Positions 2,273 to 11,649 of a DNA stretch of 64,000 nt are shown in pieces. Source of the DNA: a virus. The translations under genes were made by a program, and so were the position numbers. Location: IMG/VR virus record IMGVR_UViG_3300035198_000053, positions 1-64,000 of that record; one strand, 5' to 3'. Numbering within the stretch: position 1 is the stretch's first letter; each line of letters starts with the position of its first letter. The notes below the pieces were generated by a model that saw only the letters and a list, made by a program, of their open reading frames with translations, made no database searches and was not told where the DNA came from.

Positions 2273-2370
2273 GGGAAAGGGTAGGGGGGATAGGTTTTCT
2301 CTCGTCCTGAGCGATCCTGGCTATTGTGGGGCGTATAAACGGAAGCAGCGGCGATTAAAATCCAGAAAAA

Positions 2371-2421
2371 GGCGGGGCGACGAGGGCAAAACGGGGGAAA
2401 CGCCCGGGGGTCTACCCCGCC
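2371..2421 (+). promoter_or_regulatory. Structured GC-rich leader upstream of the coiled-coil gene
   Basis: GGCGGGG (2371-2377) pairs with CCCCGCC (2415-2421) and encloses a second stem, GGGC (2384-2387) with GCCC (2402-2405). The outer stem ends just before the ribosome site GGAAAGGGGAG of the gene at 2437, so folding could tune access to it. There is no U-tract, so it is not a simple terminator. The intergenic gap of about 160 bases is unusually long for this region. Confidence 0.4.
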
Positions 2422-2436
2422 GGAAAGGGGAGATAA

Positions 2437-2760
2437 ATGAAGAAGCGGGTATTTTTGTCTATAGTTTTGATTATTTGGGGAACGATTGGGCTGTTTGTCT
2501 TGATTCATTTAGCCGTGGCCGGGGAAAGGGAGGATCTTCAGCAGGCTTTTCAGCAGCGGCAGACGGCGCTCGGGCAGGCCAATACGCAGATCCAGGCGCA
2601 GCAGGCCGTCATAGACGCCGGAGTCAGGCAGATCACGGACGCGCAGAACCGGAAGGACCAGGCGGCAGGGCAGTTAAATCAATTGCAGATGGAGATGGGC
2701 GCGATACAAAGGCGGCTAATGGAACTTGAAAGGCCCCCGGTGGAACAGCCGGGCAAGTAA
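2437..2760 (+). CDS. Membrane-anchored coiled-coil protein
   Basis: A 107-residue protein with an N-terminal hydrophobic segment (about residues 5-28, signal anchor or signal peptide) followed by a heptad-like helix rich in Gln, Ala and Leu to about residue 98, and a Pro-rich tail. ATG 2437 has the ribosome site AAAGGGGAG. The architecture resembles inner-membrane spanins and other small envelope coiled coils, but it lies far from the lysis genes at 61-63 kb, so I do not call it a spanin. Confidence 0.6.
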   Translation: MKKRVFLSIVLIIWGTIGLFVLIHLAVAGEREDLQQAFQQRQTALGQANTQIQAQQAVIDAGVRQITDAQNRKDQAAGQLNQLQMEMGAIQRRLMELERPPVEQPGK

Positions 2761-2819
2761 GCGAGGGAAGCGTCGGCGAGATCCAAGAACTTCTTGCTGA
2801 ATACGGAGCCTGCACCGTT

Positions 2820-3104
2820 GTGATCGAATACGAGAACAACGACATCAAGGCAGTGAGCTTCAAATACGAGACAGATGGGGAGAAGGTTCCCTACCGCCTT
2901 CCGTGCGAATGGCGGGCTATCAGCGAGATACTTTCGGGCCGGCACAAAAGGCGCTCGTACAAGAAGGATCTGGACGCGGAGGCAAAGAAGATAGCGTGGA
3001 GACAGGCAAGGCGTTGGGTCGAATCACAGCTCGCTTACCTTGAGACGAAGCAGGTCAAATTTGAGCAAGCCTTTTTGGCCTATCGACTTATCTCTCCCAC
3101 CTAA
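2820..3104 (+). CDS. Hypothetical protein, N-terminus uncertain
   Basis: The first usable start in frame is GTG 2820, giving 94 residues, but the frame is open back to 2730 and the upstream codons look coding (SVGEIQELLAEYGACTVV runs smoothly into the downstream IEYEN). No ATG, GTG or TTG occurs in that extension, so the true start may be a rare codon, a frameshift from the gene ending at 2760, or the result of a sequence error. The body is a small alpha/beta region followed by a basic helix (RHKRRSYKK) and a long amphipathic helix. The family is not recognised. Confidence 0.45.
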   Translation: MIEYENNDIKAVSFKYETDGEKVPYRLPCEWRAISEILSGRHKRRSYKKDLDAEAKKIAWRQARRWVESQLAYLETKQVKFEQAFLAYRLISPT

Positions 3105-3216: not shown

Positions 3217-3951
3217 GTGGGATTAGTTGTTGCGGGTGCCATGCGCGATTCCGCAACAGAAAGACAACTGACCGTGGGCAAGATGAAAGTCGATTACGAA
3301 CAGGCACTTAGGCTTTTCAATGAGGACCACCTATCCCCGGCGGAGATAGCGCGTCAATTCGGGGTCCACCGGAGCACGATCACGCGGGTTCTCCGGCAGC
3401 TTCAGGGGAAAATCCCGGAGGGGATGCCTAGCGTGGTGGCTGCCCACAAGGTGGCGCGATACGCGGACTACCAGTTCGGTTTCGTGGAGCAGCAGAACAA
3501 GGACGTGAAAATCCTGAACAACCTTCTGGACCGGATCATACGGTACATCAACGGGGACAAGACCGCGTTCACCCCGATGCAGAAGAAGGTGGAGTCGAGG
3601 TCGGCGGAGGGGGGGCAGGAAGAGAAAGCGAAGAAGGGTAAAGAGGGCGCCTCGAAAAAGACGAAGGTAGAGCAGAAGATCGAGACGTTCGACTTCTCCA
3701 TAGACCCCCGCCTTCTCATGGTTCAGGTGATCCGAGAGGTCAGGGAGCATATGAAGCTTCAGCTTGACGCCCTCAACATGCTGGCCAACGCGCAGAACGT
3801 CCTTGCCTTTCAGCGCCACGTCCTGGACGTGATAGGGGAGATCGAGCCGGGGGCCCGGGAGAAGATCGTCAACCGGCTCAGGTCGGAGCACGCCATAAGG
3901 GCGTCGTTGATAATCAGCAAACCGGAGCAAAAAGACGGACTGCAGAATTGA
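3217..3951 (+). CDS. Putative terminase small subunit (HTH protein)
   Basis: Residues 37-60 form a helix-turn-helix of the resolvase/Hin type (SPAEIARQFGVHRSTITRV). A long helical middle follows, with a Lys/Glu-rich disordered stretch around residues 130-155, then a C-terminal helical region. A DNA-binding protein of this build one gene upstream of TerL is the expected place and shape for the subunit that recognises the packaging start site. GTG 3217 is used here; ATG 3241 and ATG 3283 are alternatives and none has a convincing ribosome site. The role is inferred mainly from position. Confidence 0.65.
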   Translation: MGLVVAGAMRDSATERQLTVGKMKVDYEQALRLFNEDHLSPAEIARQFGVHRSTITRVLRQLQGKIPEGMPSVVAAHKVARYADYQFGFVEQQNKDVKILNNLLDRIIRYINGDKTAFTPMQKKVESRSAEGGQEEKAKKGKEGASKKTKVEQKIETFDFSIDPRLLMVQVIREVREHMKLQLDALNMLANAQNVLAFQRHVLDVIGEIEPGAREKIVNRLRSEHAIRASLIISKPEQKDGLQN

Positions 3952-3970
3952 GGGATGTAAGGGGAGTTTG

Positions 3971-4405
3971 GTGTGGGTACCGAGGAAGGACCACTTTCCG
4001 GGACATATGAGATGCCTGATCTGCGGGACACCGCATACAATAAAAGGCCGCCTTTGGGCGAGGAAGGGGTCTTCAACTCACGGCGTGGAGATGTATCCGA
4101 GAGGGGATGCGATGGAAAATCCAGAAAGTCCGGGGGAAATTCTGTCTGAGAAGAAGCTCTGCAAGATCTGCGGCAAGGAGAGAACGCGCGGACACCATCA
4201 CGGAAAGGCGAAGACAAGTACGCTTCCGGCGATCGCCGCACAAACGGACGCAGAGGAGACAAGCCCCTCCGAAAGGCTGATCTCCGTCCTGGACAAACGT
4301 GTTCTTGAATTGCGGAACCTGTATCTGGCCATCAAGGTTCTGAACGAGAACGGGGCCGGGATAGAGTTGCCGGACCACCTGAAAAGCTTAACTTTGGGGA
4401 TGTAG
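3971..4405 (+). CDS. Small protein with two cysteine/histidine metal-binding knuckles
   Basis: GTG 3971 is preceded by AAGGGGAG; TTG 3968 is in frame but too close to that site. The first knuckle is CLICGTPHT with a later His; the second is CKICGKERTRGHHHGK. Both look like zinc-binding elements. The rest is a linker and a C-terminal helix. It lies between the small and large terminase subunits and stops 1 base before TerL. Zinc-binding proteins at packaging loci are common in phages, but I recognise no family. Confidence 0.6.
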   Translation: MWVPRKDHFPGHMRCLICGTPHTIKGRLWARKGSSTHGVEMYPRGDAMENPESPGEILSEKKLCKICGKERTRGHHHGKAKTSTLPAIAAQTDAEETSPSERLISVLDKRVLELRNLYLAIKVLNENGAGIELPDHLKSLTLGM

Positions 4406-6115: not shown

Positions 6116-7141
6116 ATGAATCGTAATAGACTTATTTTGATTGCTGCATGGCTTCTCCTGTTCGGGACCGTCCTGGTCTACTACCCCTCCCGCGCCGAGG
6201 ACTATGACATCTTCTATCATCTGAGATTCGGAGAGTATTTCGTGACCCACCACACCTTTCAGCTCGACCACTCCATCTTTTCCTGGACGCCCGCAGACTC
6301 GAGCTGGCGCTACGGGATCTGGCTCGGAAGCACAGCCCTTTATCTCGCATACAGGGCGTTCGGCCCGGCGGGTTTCTTCATAATCCAGTGGGGGATATTC
6401 CTGGCGATAGTCCTGCTCTACCTGCGGTTTGTGAGGAAGATCGGGGGAAGGGTCGGGCCGATCCACGTCTTTTCCCTCTTGCTTGCCTTCGTCGCGCTGA
6501 ATCTGACGGCAATATACATCAAGCCGGAGTTGTTCAGCACGCTGTTCTTTGCGGTATCGGCCTTCATCTACATCGCGGGGAAGACGGGACAGAAGAGACT
6601 TCTGTGGCTGCATCCTCCGCTCTTCCTTCTCTGGGTTAATACGCATGGGGGCTATCTGGCGGGACTAACCTTTTTGGGGATCGCGCTTGCCGGTGAGGTG
6701 TTGAACGGGATGTACTTCCAGGATAGGCGAATGGTAGTGCCGCTGGCGACGGTGTTTGTGCTGTCCTGCATTGCGGTGATGTTCAACCCCTACGGTCCGG
6801 CCTACCACGTGGGCATAATCAACACCTTCATCGGGGACGAGACTTACATGAGCTACGCCCGGCGGGTCTACGCATGGGTTGATATGTGGAGATACCTATT
6901 CCCGAAGGACGAGTTCGCCTTTAGGTTCGTGGACACGGCGTGGTGCCTGGTGATCATGATCGGGTCGTTCTCCACATTGGTCGCTTATCGGTTCGTGAAG
7001 ACGAAACGGGCAGACGTCGCCCTGATCCTCGTCAACGCGGCCTTCTTCTGGGAGGGGATGAGCGCGGCGCGGGTGACGATCTTCCTGCCGCTGATCTGGC
7101 TGTTCTCGATGGTGTATCTTGCGCATGAGGAAAAATCATGA
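6116..7141 (+). CDS. Polytopic membrane protein, N-terminal part of a GT-C-like glycosyltransferase
   Basis: 341 residues with about eight to ten hydrophobic segments. The first (about 5-22) is followed by an external loop with E28-D29-Y30-D31 and HLRFGEYF, which fits the acidic first-loop motif of GT-C enzymes that use lipid-linked sugars. PYGPAYH and a WEGMSAARVTIFLPLIWLF helix end the protein. The usual C-terminal soluble domain is missing but occurs at 8402-9112, after an inserted methyltransferase gene. The stop (7139-7141) overlaps the methyltransferase ATG. The two halves may assemble into one enzyme. The activity is inferred from topology. Confidence 0.65.
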   Translation: MNRNRLILIAAWLLLFGTVLVYYPSRAEDYDIFYHLRFGEYFVTHHTFQLDHSIFSWTPADSSWRYGIWLGSTALYLAYRAFGPAGFFIIQWGIFLAIVLLYLRFVRKIGGRVGPIHVFSLLLAFVALNLTAIYIKPELFSTLFFAVSAFIYIAGKTGQKRLLWLHPPLFLLWVNTHGGYLAGLTFLGIALAGEVLNGMYFQDRRMVVPLATVFVLSCIAVMFNPYGPAYHVGIINTFIGDETYMSYARRVYAWVDMWRYLFPKDEFAFRFVDTAWCLVIMIGSFSTLVAYRFVKTKRADVALILVNAAFFWEGMSAARVTIFLPLIWLFSMVYLAHEEKS

Positions 7142-8421
7142 CGTGGAGAATGTTGGATCTTTTTTCAGGCATCGGAGGTTTCAGCCTTGCCGCTCAATGG
7201 TGTTGGGGAGACGACCTTGAGATTCAGGCATTCGTGGAGATTGACAAGTTTTGTCAGAAGGTTCTCAAGAAGCATTGGCCGGAGGTTCCGATAATTGAAG
7301 ACATCACAAAGGTTGAGTGGGTTGTTGCCGACACCGCAGAGTATGGATGCACTGGACATCCCGAACGGAAATCAGGAGGAGAGGAAAAAGAAGGGTGGAT
7401 GTGCGAATCTGGGACAGAAAATCAGCGGATTGCTTCCAACTCCTCACGGATTCAGCCCAGATGGGAAGAGCAACGGACCCACGGGGAACGAATTAGGGTT
7501 TGCCTTAAATCACCGATCAACCTCCTCACCGGCGGATTCCCCTGCCAACCTTTTTCCTGCGCTGGGAAAAGAGCAGGAACAGAAGATGACCGCTTTCTCT
7601 GGCCAGAGATGCTTAGAGCGATTCAGGCAATTAAACCACGGTGGGTCTTGGCAGAGAATGTTTCTGGACTGCTTAGTCAACAAGACGGATTGGTATTCGA
7701 GAGAGTGTGTACTGACCTGGAAGCTGAAGAGTACGAGGTTCAGCCGGTTGTTATTCCAGCTTGCGGTGTCGGGGCGCCGCACAGAAGCGACAGGGTTTGG
7801 ATTGTTGCCCATAGCCTCAGGCAATCAATTCGAGGAAGATCCAATAACTTGGAACGAGAGAAACGACAAGATAAAAATAGATCCCCATTATCACGGAAGT
7901 TCGGGGAAACCGTTAGCGGTGAAGATCGCCATGCTTCACACGCCATCTGGACGGGAACCAGGGATATCTGTAGAGAGGTTTCAGGCGAGGGAAGGCGAAC
8001 CGGCCAAGATAGGCGAGAGGGCATACGACAGGGAAACAGGCAGGCTTGCTCAAGTGGGATTGCATTAACAGATTGCGATGCTTCCGACACCCAGGGCGAA
8101 CAAGCATTCCCCTCGGAGCCCGGAGGACTTCACCCCGAATCTTGCGGCAAGGATAGAGATGTTGCCGACACCGACCGGAAGGGATCACAAGTCGGAGAAA
8201 TGCTCAGAGGAAACCTGGGAGAGGAACGCCAGACCCCTTTCGGAAACTCTTGGCAAGAACACTGGTATGAAGTTGCAACCCGCCTTTGTCGAGTGGATGA
8301 TGGGGTTCCCCGAAGGGTGGACAGGCTTAAATCACTCGGAAACGCCATAGTGCCACAAGTGGCATTTCAGATCATGAAGGCGATAAAGGAAGTGGAAAAT
8401 AATGAGAACTCAAAAGATTAA
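7138..8421 (+). CDS. DNA cytosine-5 methyltransferase
   Basis: Transfers methyl from SAM to C5 of cytosine in a specific site; in phages it protects against restriction. Motif I LDLFSGIGGFS is at residues 6-16, motif IV GGFPCQPFS has catalytic C136, motif VI is ENV (173-175), motif VIII is DRVWIVA, and the C-terminal motifs IX-X are VDRLKSLGNAIVPQVA. Two stretches are longer than a minimal enzyme: about 61-125 and a low-complexity target region rich in Arg, Gly, Asp and Thr (ALTDCDASDTQGE, VADTDRKG). These coincide with a second, overlapping coding frame. It is inserted between two halves of a GT-C-like gene with overlaps at both ends. Confidence 0.9.
   Translation: MTWRMLDLFSGIGGFSLAAQWCWGDDLEIQAFVEIDKFCQKVLKKHWPEVPIIEDITKVEWVVADTAEYGCTGHPERKSGGEEKEGWMCESGTENQRIASNSSRIQPRWEEQRTHGERIRVCLKSPINLLTGGFPCQPFSCAGKRAGTEDDRFLWPEMLRAIQAIKPRWVLAENVSGLLSQQDGLVFERVCTDLEAEEYEVQPVVIPACGVGAPHRSDRVWIVAHSLRQSIRGRSNNLEREKRQDKNRSPLSRKFGETVSGEDRHASHAIWTGTRDICREVSGEGRRTGQDRREGIRQGNRQACSSGIALTDCDASDTQGEQAFPSEPGGLHPESCGKDRDVADTDRKGSQVGEMLRGNLGEERQTPFGNSWQEHWYEVATRLCRVDDGVPRRVDRLKSLGNAIVPQVAFQIMKAIKEVENNENSKD
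7295..8068 (+). CDS. Overlapping-frame LPTP-motif protein, first part
   Basis: Within the methyltransferase gene, in the next frame, 257 codons from TTG 7295 stay open and encode a protein with repeated LPTP blocks (SGLLPTPQ, SGLLPTPH) followed by a conserved-looking domain (WYSRECVLTWKLKSTRFSRL then FQLAVSGRRTEATGFGLLP). I recall similar sequences annotated beside phage cytosine methyltransferases, which makes dual coding more likely than chance. There is no clear ribosome site. The frame ends at TAA 8068 and resumes ten bases later as the next feature, so the product is either two pieces or a broken gene. Function unknown. Confidence 0.5.
   Translation: MKTSQRLSGLLPTPQSMDALDIPNGNQEERKKKGGCANLGQKISGLLPTPHGFSPDGKSNGPTGNELGFALNHRSTSSPADSPANLFPALGKEQEQKMTAFSGQRCLERFRQLNHGGSWQRMFLDCLVNKTDWYSRECVLTWKLKSTRFSRLLFQLAVSGRRTEATGFGLLPIASGNQFEEDPITWNERNDKIKIDPHYHGSSGKPLAVKIAMLHTPSGREPGISVERFQAREGEPAKIGERAYDRETGRLAQVGLH
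8078..8350 (+). CDS. Overlapping-frame LPTP-motif protein, second part
   Basis: This continues the same overlapping frame: ATG 8078 opens MLPTPRANKH, then MLPTPTGRDH, and ends with FVEWMMGFPEGWTGL, which I recognise as the usual C-terminal signature of LPTP-rich phage proteins. The same bases encode motifs IX-X of the methyltransferase. Two family-like ends in two frames of one stretch is the strongest sign that both are real. It may be part of one protein with 7295-8068, separated by a TAA. Confidence 0.5.
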   Translation: MLPTPRANKHSPRSPEDFTPNLAARIEMLPTPTGRDHKSEKCSEETWERNARPLSETLGKNTGMKLQPAFVEWMMGFPEGWTGLNHSETP

Positions 8422-9112
8422 AGACAAATACATTCTGATCGCCATGGCCCTGATCTTCGTCTTCATCGGCCGAATGACCCTGCTCAACCTTGAGGACCGC
8501 TCCTGGTTCGGGAAGAACCTGATCGAATACGCACCGGTGAAGGAGGTCGAGTTCGTGAAGAAGTACAGACTGCCCGGCCCCATCCTCAACGACTACCTGA
8601 TCGGGGGCTACCTGATCTGGGCACTCTACCCAGACTACAAGGTCTTTATCGACCCGCGCTACGGTCCCTACTGGAAGGAGACGGGACCGGATTATTTCGA
8701 GTTCATGGCGCACCTGAACCCGGAGACATTGAGGAAATTCAACCAGAAGTACCCATTTAGGACGATCATTTTGAGCATGAGGGAGATCACGCTTATAAAC
8801 TTCCTAATCGGTCAGCCGGAGTGGAGGCTGATCTATTTCGACAAGGCGGCGGTCGTGATAGTACACTCCTCCGTCATCCCGACGCTGAGCCGGGAGGCGC
8901 TCTCGACGGACATGAGCCCGCAGAAGTTCGGGGACGTGGTCAACCCCATCGTCCTTGAGAACCTCTTCAACTTCTATCTCATGATCGGGCCGCAGTACGC
9001 CAGGGTGATAGCGGACATCTTCACGCGGAATGTGACCGTGTTCAATCAGACCAAGGGCGTGAAGTTGGCGGAGATGCGGAACAGGATAGCGCAGCGAGAA
9101 GGACAGAAATGA
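8402..9112 (+). CDS. C-terminal part of the split GT-C-like membrane protein
   Basis: 236 residues. One membrane helix (about 10-28, YILIAMALIFVFIGRMTLLN) leads into an external domain with LNDYLIGGYLIWALYPDYKV and FIDPRYGPY, which I recognise as the C-terminal periplasmic domain of large GT-C-like proteins. In full-length relatives this follows directly on a helix like the one ending the 6116-7141 product. It starts inside the methyltransferase 3' end (20-base overlap), so all three genes are probably co-translated. It is not a complete enzyme alone. Confidence 0.65.
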   Translation: MRTQKIKDKYILIAMALIFVFIGRMTLLNLEDRSWFGKNLIEYAPVKEVEFVKKYRLPGPILNDYLIGGYLIWALYPDYKVFIDPRYGPYWKETGPDYFEFMAHLNPETLRKFNQKYPFRTIILSMREITLINFLIGQPEWRLIYFDKAAVVIVHSSVIPTLSREALSTDMSPQKFGDVVNPIVLENLFNFYLMIGPQYARVIADIFTRNVTVFNQTKGVKLAEMRNRIAQREGQK

Positions 9113-9531
9113 GAGCTTCAGATAATTTGTGGCTTGTTGGGAATAGAGGAAGTTTTATAGTTCACGTTCCTGAATGTGAATTTGCAGATAAAATCCATCC
9201 AGATAATTTTGAGGAATTTGAGTCTTTAGAAAATGCATTTTCATACGGTTATAGAGAATGTATTTACTGCATGGGGGGCGGTAGAGAAAAGGAGATTCAA
9301 TGGATATTGAAAAAGCAATTATCTGATTCACTTAAATCTTCACAAAATGATGCTGGATGCTGTATTTGCGGCTATAAGAAAGCAGTTCAAAAAGCCCATC
9401 TGCATCCAAGAAGTAAAGGAGGCATAGCAATAATTCCTCTTTGTCCTAATTGTCATTGGAATTATGAGCATAATTTACTTTCAAATAAACAAAAAACGAG
9501 GCTTATAGATTATTTGAGGGGGCAGAAATGA
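9109..9531 (+). CDS. HNH endonuclease
   Basis: A 140-residue protein with two metal sites. The N-terminal part has an Ada-like pattern (VPECEFADKIHPDNFEEF, then GYRECIYC). The C-terminal part is an HNH nuclease: CCICG, KAHLHPRSKGG and LCPNCHWNYEHN. It is strikingly AT-rich beside its GC-rich neighbours and overlaps both by ATGA, the pattern expected for a free-standing homing endonuclease dropped between two genes. A role in packaging is unlikely because it lies inside the sugar island. Confidence 0.8.
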   Translation: MRASDNLWLVGNRGSFIVHVPECEFADKIHPDNFEEFESLENAFSYGYRECIYCMGGGREKEIQWILKKQLSDSLKSSQNDAGCCICGYKKAVQKAHLHPRSKGGIAIIPLCPNCHWNYEHNLLSNKQKTRLIDYLRGQK

Positions 9532-10667
9532 GGGTCGAATTCTTCCGACACAGCATCGACGAAGAAGACATCGCAAGGCTGGCCGAGACGGCAAGGTCCG
9601 TCTTCCTGACCACGGGGCCGCAGGTCGAAAAGTTCGAGAATGCATTGGGAGAGTATCTCGGCGGTCATGCCGTAGCGGTGACGAGTTGCACGGCGGCTAT
9701 GCACCTCTGTCTCCTGGCATGGGAGATAGGCCCGGACTGCGAGGTCATCACTACACCCCTGAGCTTCTGCGCCACGGCCAACGTCACCCTGCACACCTGG
9801 GCGACTCCCGTGTTTGTGGACGTGGAAGAGGAGACCGGGAATATCGACGCCGATCTGATAGAGGGGAAGATCACGGGCAGGACCAGGGCGATCATGCCCG
9901 TGCACCTTTACGGGCAGATGTGCGACATGCGGAGGATAAGACAGATAGCCAAAAAACACAAATTGATAATCATCGAGGATGCGGCCCACTGTGTCGAGGG
10001 CGTGCGGGAAGGGATACTTCCGGGGCAATTCGGGAATGCAGCCTGCTTCAGCTTTTACGCGACCAAGAATATCACTTCGGGCGAGGGCGGGGCGATAGTC
10101 ACAGACAATCGGATGAAAGCAGATCTGTTAAAGCAACTCCGGCTCCACGGAATAGACGAATCGGCGGCGGATCGCTACACGGGGGAATACAGACATTACG
10201 ACATGGGTATGCTCGGCTGGAAGTATAACATGGACGATCTTCAGGCCTCGCTGCTTATCGGCCAGTTGGAAAGAATAGACGAACTATGGAATAGAAGGGA
10301 GATTATTTGTCGGGATTATGAAATGGCGTTCGCTAAAGTAGAGGGGATAAGACTCATCAAGCCAACGCACGATATTTATCCGTCTAATCGTCACGCTCGG
10401 CACCTGTTCACCATTCAGGTGGCGCCGGAGCACAGGGACGCGATTCTCCATGAACTGCAAAAGAAGGATATCGGCGTGGCGGTGCACTTCAGGCCGATTC
10501 ATCTCATGTCCTACTATCGGGAGCGGTTCGGGTATAAGGAAGGAGACTTTCCCGTGGCGGAGCGGATCGGGGCAAGCACGATCTCCCTACCCCTTTATCC
10601 CAGACTGACGGATGAGGAAGTGGAGTACGTGATCAAGGCGGTGAAGGAGGTCCTAGCCTCGGCATGA
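9528..10667 (+). CDS. DegT/DnrJ/EryC1 family sugar aminotransferase
   Basis: A PLP-dependent aminotransferase that adds an amino group to a nucleotide-linked keto sugar. Full length (379 aa). The PLP lysine is K180 in FSFYATKNITSGEGG, with the preceding PLP-contacting D151 in IIEDAAH. It also shows TSCTAAMHL (52-60), TTPLSFCATANV and the C-terminal GVAVHFRPIHLMSYYRERFG. Relatives act at C4 of UDP-linked 4-keto-6-deoxy sugars (PseC, LegC, ArnB types). The dehydratase at 15593-16642 could supply its substrate. The enzyme class is secure; the exact sugar is not. Confidence 0.9.
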   Translation: MRVEFFRHSIDEEDIARLAETARSVFLTTGPQVEKFENALGEYLGGHAVAVTSCTAAMHLCLLAWEIGPDCEVITTPLSFCATANVTLHTWATPVFVDVEEETGNIDADLIEGKITGRTRAIMPVHLYGQMCDMRRIRQIAKKHKLIIIEDAAHCVEGVREGILPGQFGNAACFSFYATKNITSGEGGAIVTDNRMKADLLKQLRLHGIDESAADRYTGEYRHYDMGMLGWKYNMDDLQASLLIGQLERIDELWNRREIICRDYEMAFAKVEGIRLIKPTHDIYPSNRHARHLFTIQVAPEHRDAILHELQKKDIGVAVHFRPIHLMSYYRERFGYKEGDFPVAERIGASTISLPLYPRLTDEEVEYVIKAVKEVLASA

Positions 10668-10755: not shown

Positions 10756-11649
10756 ATGAATAGACTTGAGGATGCGGGTTATTTCCCCAAAGTGATTCTC
10801 ATCGACACCTGTTCCTTCTGCGATCTCCGTTGCTCAATGTGCGCCCACAAGGACATGAAGCGGAAGAAGGGCGTCATGACCTGGAGGCTCTTCACCAAGA
10901 TCATAAATGAGATAGCGGAGAGAGACAGGAACGCGCGCGTGTGGCTGGTCTTCTTCGGAGAGGCGCTTATTTTAAAGAACAGCAGGCCGTCGATATTTGA
11001 CATGATCGCGTACTCCAAAAAGAAGGGGTTGACAGATGTCGTGCTAAATACGAACGGAAAGCTGCTCGATATAGATGCCGCAGATAAGCTGATCGAATCC
11101 GGCCTGGATGCGATCTATGTGGGGATAGATGCTTTTACCCCCGAGACGTATGACAGGCTGAGGATTGGCGGGGATTATTGGAGCGTTGTTCGAAACGTGG
11201 AATCGTTCATGGCGTACAAAGAGGGATTGGAGATCAGGCACCCGAAAATATTCGTTCAGTTTGTGGAAATGGAAGAGAACTTTGAAGAGCGGGATCAGTT
11301 TGTCCGCTATTGGACGCACAGGGGCGCGGAGGTGAAGATCCGCCCCAAGGTGAGCTGGGCCGGGGCTGTGGACGCTCCTAACCTGACGGCGGGGAACATG
11401 GAGCGGCATCCCTGCTATTGGGCTATGCAGACGATGTCGATCACGAACGAGGGGAAGGTGGTCACGTGCGCCGTGGACGTAGAGGCCAAGTTCGTGGCCG
11501 GGGACGTGAACAATAATTCCCTGTCCGAGATCTGGAACGGGACGCTGAAGGATCTGAGGGCGATGCACCTGGCGGGAGATTATTCCTGGCTGCCCCATCA
11601 TTGTTTCTCGTGCCGGGACTGGCAGGCGGCGAGGGCGGAGTTCTATTGA
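10756..11649 (+). CDS. Radical SAM protein with SPASM-like C-terminus
   Basis: A 297-residue radical SAM enzyme. The 4Fe-4S motif CxxxCxxC is C22-DLR-C26-SM-C29. The barrel follows, with FFGEAL (normally GGEPL), VLNTNGKLLD and YVGIDAFTPETYDRLR. The C-terminus has MSITNEGKVVTCAVD, GDVNNNSLSEIWNG and a closing C-F-S-C pair, as in SPASM proteins that bind auxiliary Fe-S clusters. Relatives of this build occur in O-antigen and sugar-modification loci. The reaction here is unknown. ATG 10756 is chosen because ATG 10752 runs into a stop after three codons. Confidence 0.85.
   Translation: MNRLEDAGYFPKVILIDTCSFCDLRCSMCAHKDMKRKKGVMTWRLFTKIINEIAERDRNARVWLVFFGEALILKNSRPSIFDMIAYSKKKGLTDVVLNTNGKLLDIDAADKLIESGLDAIYVGIDAFTPETYDRLRIGGDYWSVVRNVESFMAYKEGLEIRHPKIFVQFVEMEENFEERDQFVRYWTHRGAEVKIRPKVSWAGAVDAPNLTAGNMERHPCYWAMQTMSITNEGKVVTCAVDVEAKFVAGDVNNNSLSEIWNGTLKDLRAMHLAGDYSWLPHHCFSCRDWQAARAEFY

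Follow-up and report, generated by a model that had tools for sequence, protein, structure and literature searches.

What does a long second reading frame inside a viral methyltransferase gene encode, if it encodes anything? The question is raised by a virus in the IMG/VR collection (record IMGVR_UViG_3300035198_000053), of which positions 1 to 64,000 were analysed and are referred to here as the window. An earlier note on this DNA recognised a cytosine methyltransferase in one frame (frame 0) and, overlapping it in the +1 frame, a protein rich in LPTP motifs, said to have no known function. Here, the frame-0 chain is called alpha and the product of the +1 frame beta. We consider it very probable that, in the gene family represented by this locus, the two subunits of a phage C5-cytosine methyltransferase of the M.EcoHK31I kind are encoded by the same piece of DNA. 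Judging from hundreds of relatives, the +1 frame most likely holds the target-recognition part of the enzyme.

Two reading frames in the window gene

Frame 0 encodes a cytosine methyltransferase, as the earlier note had it. The chain matches Pfam PF00145 at 5.7e-42 and PHROG 363 at 6e-74, scores above the cutoff for TIGR00675, and carries motifs I, IV (PCQ), VI (ENV), VIII, and X, as a PF00145 enzyme should. Four rows from annotated phage records were left out of the structure modelling. An AlphaFold model of alpha has pLDDT values above 90 across most of motifs I to VIII and X. The large domain of this model matches M.HhaI at 1.6e-13. The structures of M.HhaI are the best solved matches, and the enzyme of prophage CP-933R (3g7u) was a further hit. 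The alpha profile aligns with M.HhaI as far as motif VIII only. In the recognition region, residues 251–372 form a linker with pLDDT below 50 and are predicted to be disordered; values below 50 are also found for residues 72–78 and 81–106, which correspond to the LPTP modules that precede motif IV.

The +1 frame is open for 257 and then 90 codons on either side of a TAA, and ends FVEWMMGFPEGWT, its second part ending in FVEWMMGFPEGWTGLNHSETP (Table 1). LPTP-type motifs occur at 7325, 7430, 8078, and 8159, where the same bases read VADT, ASDT, or VADTD-type in frame 0, and a further motif, MLHTP, lies 3' of motif VIII.

Table 1. Positions of features of the methyltransferase gene in the window
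Feature	Position	Strand	Remarks
Alpha, C5-cytosine methyltransferase large-domain chain, motifs I-VIII and X	7138..8421	+	Frame 0, 427 aa
Shine-Dalgarno-like GGAGG	7281..7285	+	9 nt 5' of TTG 7295
Beta, first part, LPTP frame (+1)	7295..8068	+	257 codons, TTG to TAA; PHROG 1008 at 4.5e-12
LPTP modules inserted 5' of motif IV (LPTP at 7325 and 7430)	7310..7500	+	Kin to the post-VIII segment of locus L009
Alpha motif IV, GGFPCQ with catalytic Cys	7531..7548	+	Invariant in alignment A1
Candidate alternative beta start, ATG at alpha EDDR codons, AGGA ahead	7586..7588	+	ATG here in about 170 of 247 relatives
Alpha motif VIII, HRSDRVWIV	7780..7806	+	Alignment A1
Recognition region, LPTP modules coding in beta; alpha frame open	7811..8276	+	Family ratio: beta 0.26, alpha 1.38
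TAA in beta frame; CAA in the matching module of locus L217	8066..8068	+	Sequence comparison
Beta, second part (LPTP at 8078 and 8159)	8078..8350	+	ATG-led, 90 codons; PHROG 1008 at 5.7e-11
Motif IX in beta frame, FVEWMMGFPEGWT	8285..8323	+	Family beta ratio 0.17 over the IX region
Alpha motif X, GNAIVP	8338..8355	+	Alignment A1; G and N invariant

Taken by itself, the window gene provides mild evidence that the +1 frame is coding. A +1 run of at least 257 codons was obtained in 82 of 2000 synonymous-codon shuffles of the gene (p ~0.04), so the length of the run alone is mildly unusual. The number of stops is the stronger sign: one is observed between 7294 and 8349, where 4.8 are expected, and the minimum in 1000 shuffles was one. 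Consequently, the case must rest on relatives of the gene.

Searches with the beta profile returned no match to PDB entries up to E=10 and, in Pfam, stray matches only, with no convincing family. Modelled alone with AlphaFold, beta gave a mean pLDDT of 61, and this model was not used for fold comparison. Such a poor model might fit a chain that needs a partner, yet it counts as no evidence for one. The LPTP region is therefore tied to known recognition domains by its position and by motif IX, not by its fold. Motif IX itself was identified by its sequence pattern, its position, and its occurrence in the same chain as motif X in mycobacteriophages Firecracker and Phasih.

Beta may begin at one of several sites within alpha, as far as start codons and Shine-Dalgarno matches can indicate. 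In the window, a beta-frame TAA lies directly upstream of the GGAGG/TTG site. Among relatives, beta-frame start codons cluster near -42 and +54 nt from motif IV, with several loci (L023, L025, and L028 among them) reading GGAG, 7 nt, ATG. Where LPTP modules precede motif IV (L009, L010, L017), an ATG with a Shine-Dalgarno match at a spacing of 9 stands ahead of the modules. In total, 196 of 247 loci have a start codon with a Shine-Dalgarno match in the beta frame, a modest excess over the 139.6 expected.

Several genes downstream of the methyltransferase were also noted. A small open reading frame two genes 3' of it (9109–9531) has weak HNH matches below the Pfam cutoffs. By eye, the translation of 9528–10667 resembles a DegT/DnrJ-type aminotransferase and that of 10756–11649 a radical-SAM protein.

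The nested arrangement in a family of phage genes

Protein searches of phages and viral contigs, together with one scan of bacterial and archaeal genomes, yielded at least about 325 loci, which are best matches from pattern-based scans and not a random sample. They include phages of Paenibacillus, Lacticaseibacillus, Mycobacterium, Acinetobacter, Synechococcus, and Bacteroides, as well as loci from many bacterial phyla. In at least 259 of them, motif IX is read in the +1 frame, whereas motifs IV and X belong to frame 0, which contains no stop between these two. Only this main class of the tally was used, because some rows of the minor classes arose from a spurious motif IV match. Overprinting of this length had been called rare in the earlier note; in the phage methyltransferase family to which the window gene belongs, overlap is the rule. 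PHROG 1008 was matched by all 93 beta relatives scanned.

Openness of the +1 frame was assessed in genes chosen by alpha, which avoids choosing on the LPTP frame. Frame-0 alignment found 80 such loci, 76 of which have a complete frame-0 gene. The +1 frame is open from motif IV+45 in 75 of these 76, where synonymous shuffles predict 0.68. In the sole exception, L071, beta is followed by an HNH-like insertion. At this locus, alpha has an insert of ~100 codons between motifs IX and X (~2550–2900), which in the beta frame resembles an HNH endonuclease (CENCQNTERLQIHHKDENW...CPTCHMKLHW), and alpha is open throughout.

Alpha is likewise kept open across the recognition region. Under beta-synonymous shuffling of this region, alpha stays open in ~5% of cases (13.5/245). 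Since the 259 loci were classed as open, the fair comparison is 259 open loci against nine that seem to fail, and for five of these the motif IV anchor is spurious. A frame held open by selection, though with no selection on its residues, is what a read-through alpha linker to motif X would show.

Some members of the family already appear in public records. In Paenibacillus phage Lily, gp62 and gp63 were deposited as a methyltransferase and, in the +1 frame, a ‘g62 internal gene’, the same arrangement as in the window; gp63, however, is annotated as a hypothetical protein, and the record proposes no function for it. A search of E. coli genomes gave four matches, of which L327, from a pigeon strain, is nested likewise, and L328 has an internal stop. 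The former (positions 3398–4135, in a phage-like region of strain PT62) is annotated as a DNA cytosine methyltransferase, and its nested +1 frame ends LNPQWVEWFMGWPIGWTEL. A plasmid search gave five weak matches. The literature that was searched contained no paper directly on overlapping phage methyltransferases.

Selection switches between the frames

Substitutions were counted in 71 disjoint pairs of relatives with 75–97% identity, after removal of near-identical copies, and intervals were obtained by bootstrapping over pairs. Each substitution was classed as synonymous or not in each frame. Constraint on beta was expressed as dNN/dNS and constraint on alpha as dNN/dSN, with a value of 1 indicating none. 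From the start of the gene to 100 nt before motif IV, the beta ratio is 1.03 [0.86–1.25] and the alpha ratio 0.19 [0.16–0.21]. Around motif IV (IV-100 to IV+45), the values are 0.88 [0.74–1.05] and 0.24. Both frames are constrained over the same bases from IV+45 to motif VIII, where beta stands at 0.55 [0.50–0.61] and alpha at 0.28 [0.24–0.31]. This is dual coding as observed in relatives, the pairs that include the window being too few alone.

In the recognition region, between motifs VIII and IX, the pattern is reversed. Beta falls to 0.26 [0.22–0.31] and alpha rises to 1.38 [1.16–1.71]. Substitutions at alpha codon positions 1/2/3 number 822/310/230 and thus lie mostly at the third position of beta codons. 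An alpha ratio above 1 does not indicate positive selection here, because beta constrains the bases that are third positions of alpha. Over the motif IX region, beta is at 0.17 [0.13–0.22] and alpha at 0.69; in the 15-nt core bin of the motif, beta reaches 0.02 and substitutions at the three positions number 130/11/3. After motif IX (IX+35 to the end), beta returns to 0.77 [0.62–0.96] and alpha to 0.15. Everywhere outside the recognition region and motif IX, the alpha ratio lies between 0.15 and 0.28. Earlier counts, made by identity class and by position, agree with these results.

True dual coding is therefore confined to approximately IV+45 to VIII plus the edge of motif IX. In the recognition region it is the LPTP frame that is selected, while frame 0 is open, apparently without selection on its residues. 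The few pairs that include the window lean the same way, with substitutions at positions 1/2/3 of 24/10/13 and 14/2/5 for two segments of L009, 13/5/3 for L217, 9/0/2 for L010, 10/6/2 for L173, and 10/5/3 for L186. The segments that the earlier note described as methyltransferase insertions are better seen in reverse: they code in the LPTP frame, and frame 0 passes through them open, with no detectable selection on its amino acids.

Mobile modules and rearranged relatives

Comparison of the window with its relatives indicates that LPTP modules shift place within the gene. Positions 7823–7926, which follow motif VIII in the window, resemble positions 167–270 of L009, which precede motif IV (80% DNA identity). 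The reverse is seen for window positions ~7318–7433, before motif IV, which resemble ~559–666 of L009, after motif VIII (score 62 vs a shuffle maximum of 36). In addition, window positions 8081–8145 resemble a pre-IV segment of L010 (78%). Downstream of the hairpin region, most betas contain one to three LPTP-like motifs; upstream of it, one or two are present in 24 of 173. These observations can be accommodated by a broader model, which we put forward tentatively and hold to be rather less probable than its contrary. In this model, the recognition half would be a modular protein in its own right, with LPTP modules that trade places between pre-IV and post-VIII positions and so alter target specificity, and the catalytic chain would read each module as a stop-free but meaningless linker. 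The window might then represent a three-piece form, with beta split at a module junction.

LPTP homologues also occur without being overprinted on the methyltransferase frame, either as a separate gene or in frame with the methyltransferase motifs. In mycobacteriophage Firecracker, alpha (gp6) ends shortly past motif VIII, and gp5, which extends beyond the alpha stop, carries LPTP together with motifs IX and X. In Phasih, motifs I to VIII, the LPTP modules, motif IX, and motif X follow one another in one chain and one frame. The beta profile matches Firecracker gp5 at 5.5e-14 and Phasih at 1.4e-10. Together with the suppression of amino-acid change in the recognition region, this speaks to both points on which the earlier note had made its second frame depend, and neither refutes it; the second frame is a real, selected coding frame in the family.

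Other rearrangements were seen. At the Phasih locus (L007, 1245–2471), a beta-like N-terminal part persists in the +1 frame, and the single chain suggests a fusion by frameshift. In L245 and L246 (~2330–3000), the LPTP modules are read in +1, but motif IX now shares frame 0 with motif X; the +1 frame stops ahead of motif X, with an apparent change of frame between the recognition region and motif IX. A first tally had counted these two loci as single-frame, an assignment that was rejected because the LPTP modules are in +1 and motif IX alone is shifted.

Comparison with known methyltransferases

Single-chain enzymes such as M.HhaI and M.HaeIII share the large-domain fold and the motif set with the window gene. 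Their motifs, however, all lie in the same frame of a single chain that lacks LPTP modules, whereas motif IX of the window gene lies in the +1 frame and the similarity of its alpha profile to M.HhaI ends at motif VIII.

Two-chain C5 enzymes provide a closer parallel. The genes of M.AquI overlap only partly. Lee et al. are said to have reported in 1995 that the small gene of M.EcoHK31I is nested in the large gene in another frame, which would be the arrangement found here. The large subunit of M.EcoHK31I is described as carrying motifs I to VIII and X along with a predicted recognition domain, which leaves only motif IX for the small subunit; in M.AquI, motifs I to VIII are in the large chain, and the small chain has motif IX and a portion of the recognition region (PMC3404938). 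The window gene lacks the M.AquI (CYCGRG) form, in which motif X is in the small chain, since its GNAIVP is in frame 0. That form is instead resembled by gp6 and gp5 of Firecracker, where motif X is in the second chain.

At the level of sequence, the window family shares with M.EcoHK31I (alpha/beta, YGGCCR) a large chain with motifs I to VIII and X and a separate small chain with motif IX, a likeness drawn from the published description of that enzyme. The additional features are LPTP modules, which in part lie ahead of motif IV, and, in the window, a broken beta. A further difference is that the published recognition domain is in the large chain, whereas here only beta is constrained between motifs VIII and IX. 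Either the window family differs from M.EcoHK31I in this respect, or the published assignment of the recognition domain needs revision.

The window beta and alpha match PHROG 1008 and PHROG 363, respectively, both labelled ‘DNA methyltransferase’, but these labels are silent on the two families being two frames of one gene.

The interrupted beta of the window virus

In the window itself, the small-chain frame is not intact. Its TAA stands where L217, in a module 78% identical to that of the window, has CAA, and beta appears from this comparison to have been split or broken by a nonsense change. Reassignment of the codon, or its suppression by a tRNA, was considered and rejected: TAA is an ordinary terminator in this virus, ending 9 of 36 long genes, and a search of the window turned up no tRNA gene, so that there is no sign of a suppressor tRNA. 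The virus could produce two beta fragments, by re-initiation at ATG 8078, or an inactive beta; alternatively, the base could be a consensus error.

It is a serious possibility, if short of probable, that this particular virus is losing the enzyme, with the TAA killing beta and the gene decaying or awaiting replacement. Such a loss would be compatible with the proposed function of the family, and it agrees with the CAA of L217, with the ordinary use of TAA, with the lack of any sign of a suppressor tRNA, and with the finding that, in the 247 nested relatives analysed, no beta stop lies farther than ~60 nt past motif IV. Set against it are the ATG that comes 9 nt after the TAA, from which translation could re-initiate, and the chance that a single base of the consensus is wrong. 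Moreover, changes relative to relatives are mostly beta-silent on both flanks of the stop, and any loss must therefore be recent.

A proposed two-subunit enzyme and its alternatives

Under the two-subunit explanation, alpha would fold as the catalytic large domain, with motifs I to VIII and a C-terminal motif X. Beta would be translated from its own initiation site inside alpha and would supply the small domain, consisting of motif IX and of LPTP modules that make up all or part of the target-recognition domain. From motif VIII to motif X, alpha would serve as an open linker, whose residues show no detectable selection because the same DNA codes in beta. Alpha and beta would come together as a single methyltransferase, whose presumed role is to protect or mark phage DNA by methylation. 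The LPTP product would thus have a likely function. The statement that it has none known is also weakened by its motif IX, its recognition-domain position, its match to PHROG 1008, and the existence of known two-chain enzymes like M.EcoHK31I. That the LPTP protein might be unrelated to methylation was rejected on the presence of motif IX and the PHROG 1008 match.

Both frames could also be used by programmed ribosomal frameshifting, in which one chain would pass from frame 0 to +1 after motif VIII and back again before motif X. The product would have the canonical motif order, and Phasih does have LPTP, IX, and X in one frame of a single chain. However, two shifts would be needed, and keeping alpha open across the recognition region would be needless. 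Beta is, moreover, constrained already upstream of motif VIII, and its start sites, with LPTP modules at some loci, lie 5' of motif IV, which makes frameshifting very unlikely. We give still less credence to the idea that alpha alone is the enzyme, with the LPTP frame a by-product of alpha codons or a fossil of an older frame. The window gene would allow this, given the modest shuffling result for its 257-codon run and its interrupted beta, but the idea is already contradicted at the family level, where amino-acid selection in the recognition region acts on beta and not on alpha, motif IX is in beta, and beta is open in all but one of the 76 genes. Chance openness of the LPTP frame was rejected for the family on the shuffles, the same 75 open genes, and the substitution counts; the window alone would have been insufficient for this.

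Implications

The two-subunit explanation has consequences for how phage methyltransferases are read. Two proteins are probably encoded by many of the phage and prophage genes that carry the annotation ‘DNA methyltransferase’, and the protein that determines the target mostly has no annotation. In that case, predictions of specificity and cloning based on the large frame rely on residues that are not under selection, and a large chain tested alone would give false negatives. The family also offers a clean natural case in which a domain boundary coincides with a switch of the selected reading frame, and it may lead to the recognition domain being reassigned in enzymes of the M.EcoHK31I type.
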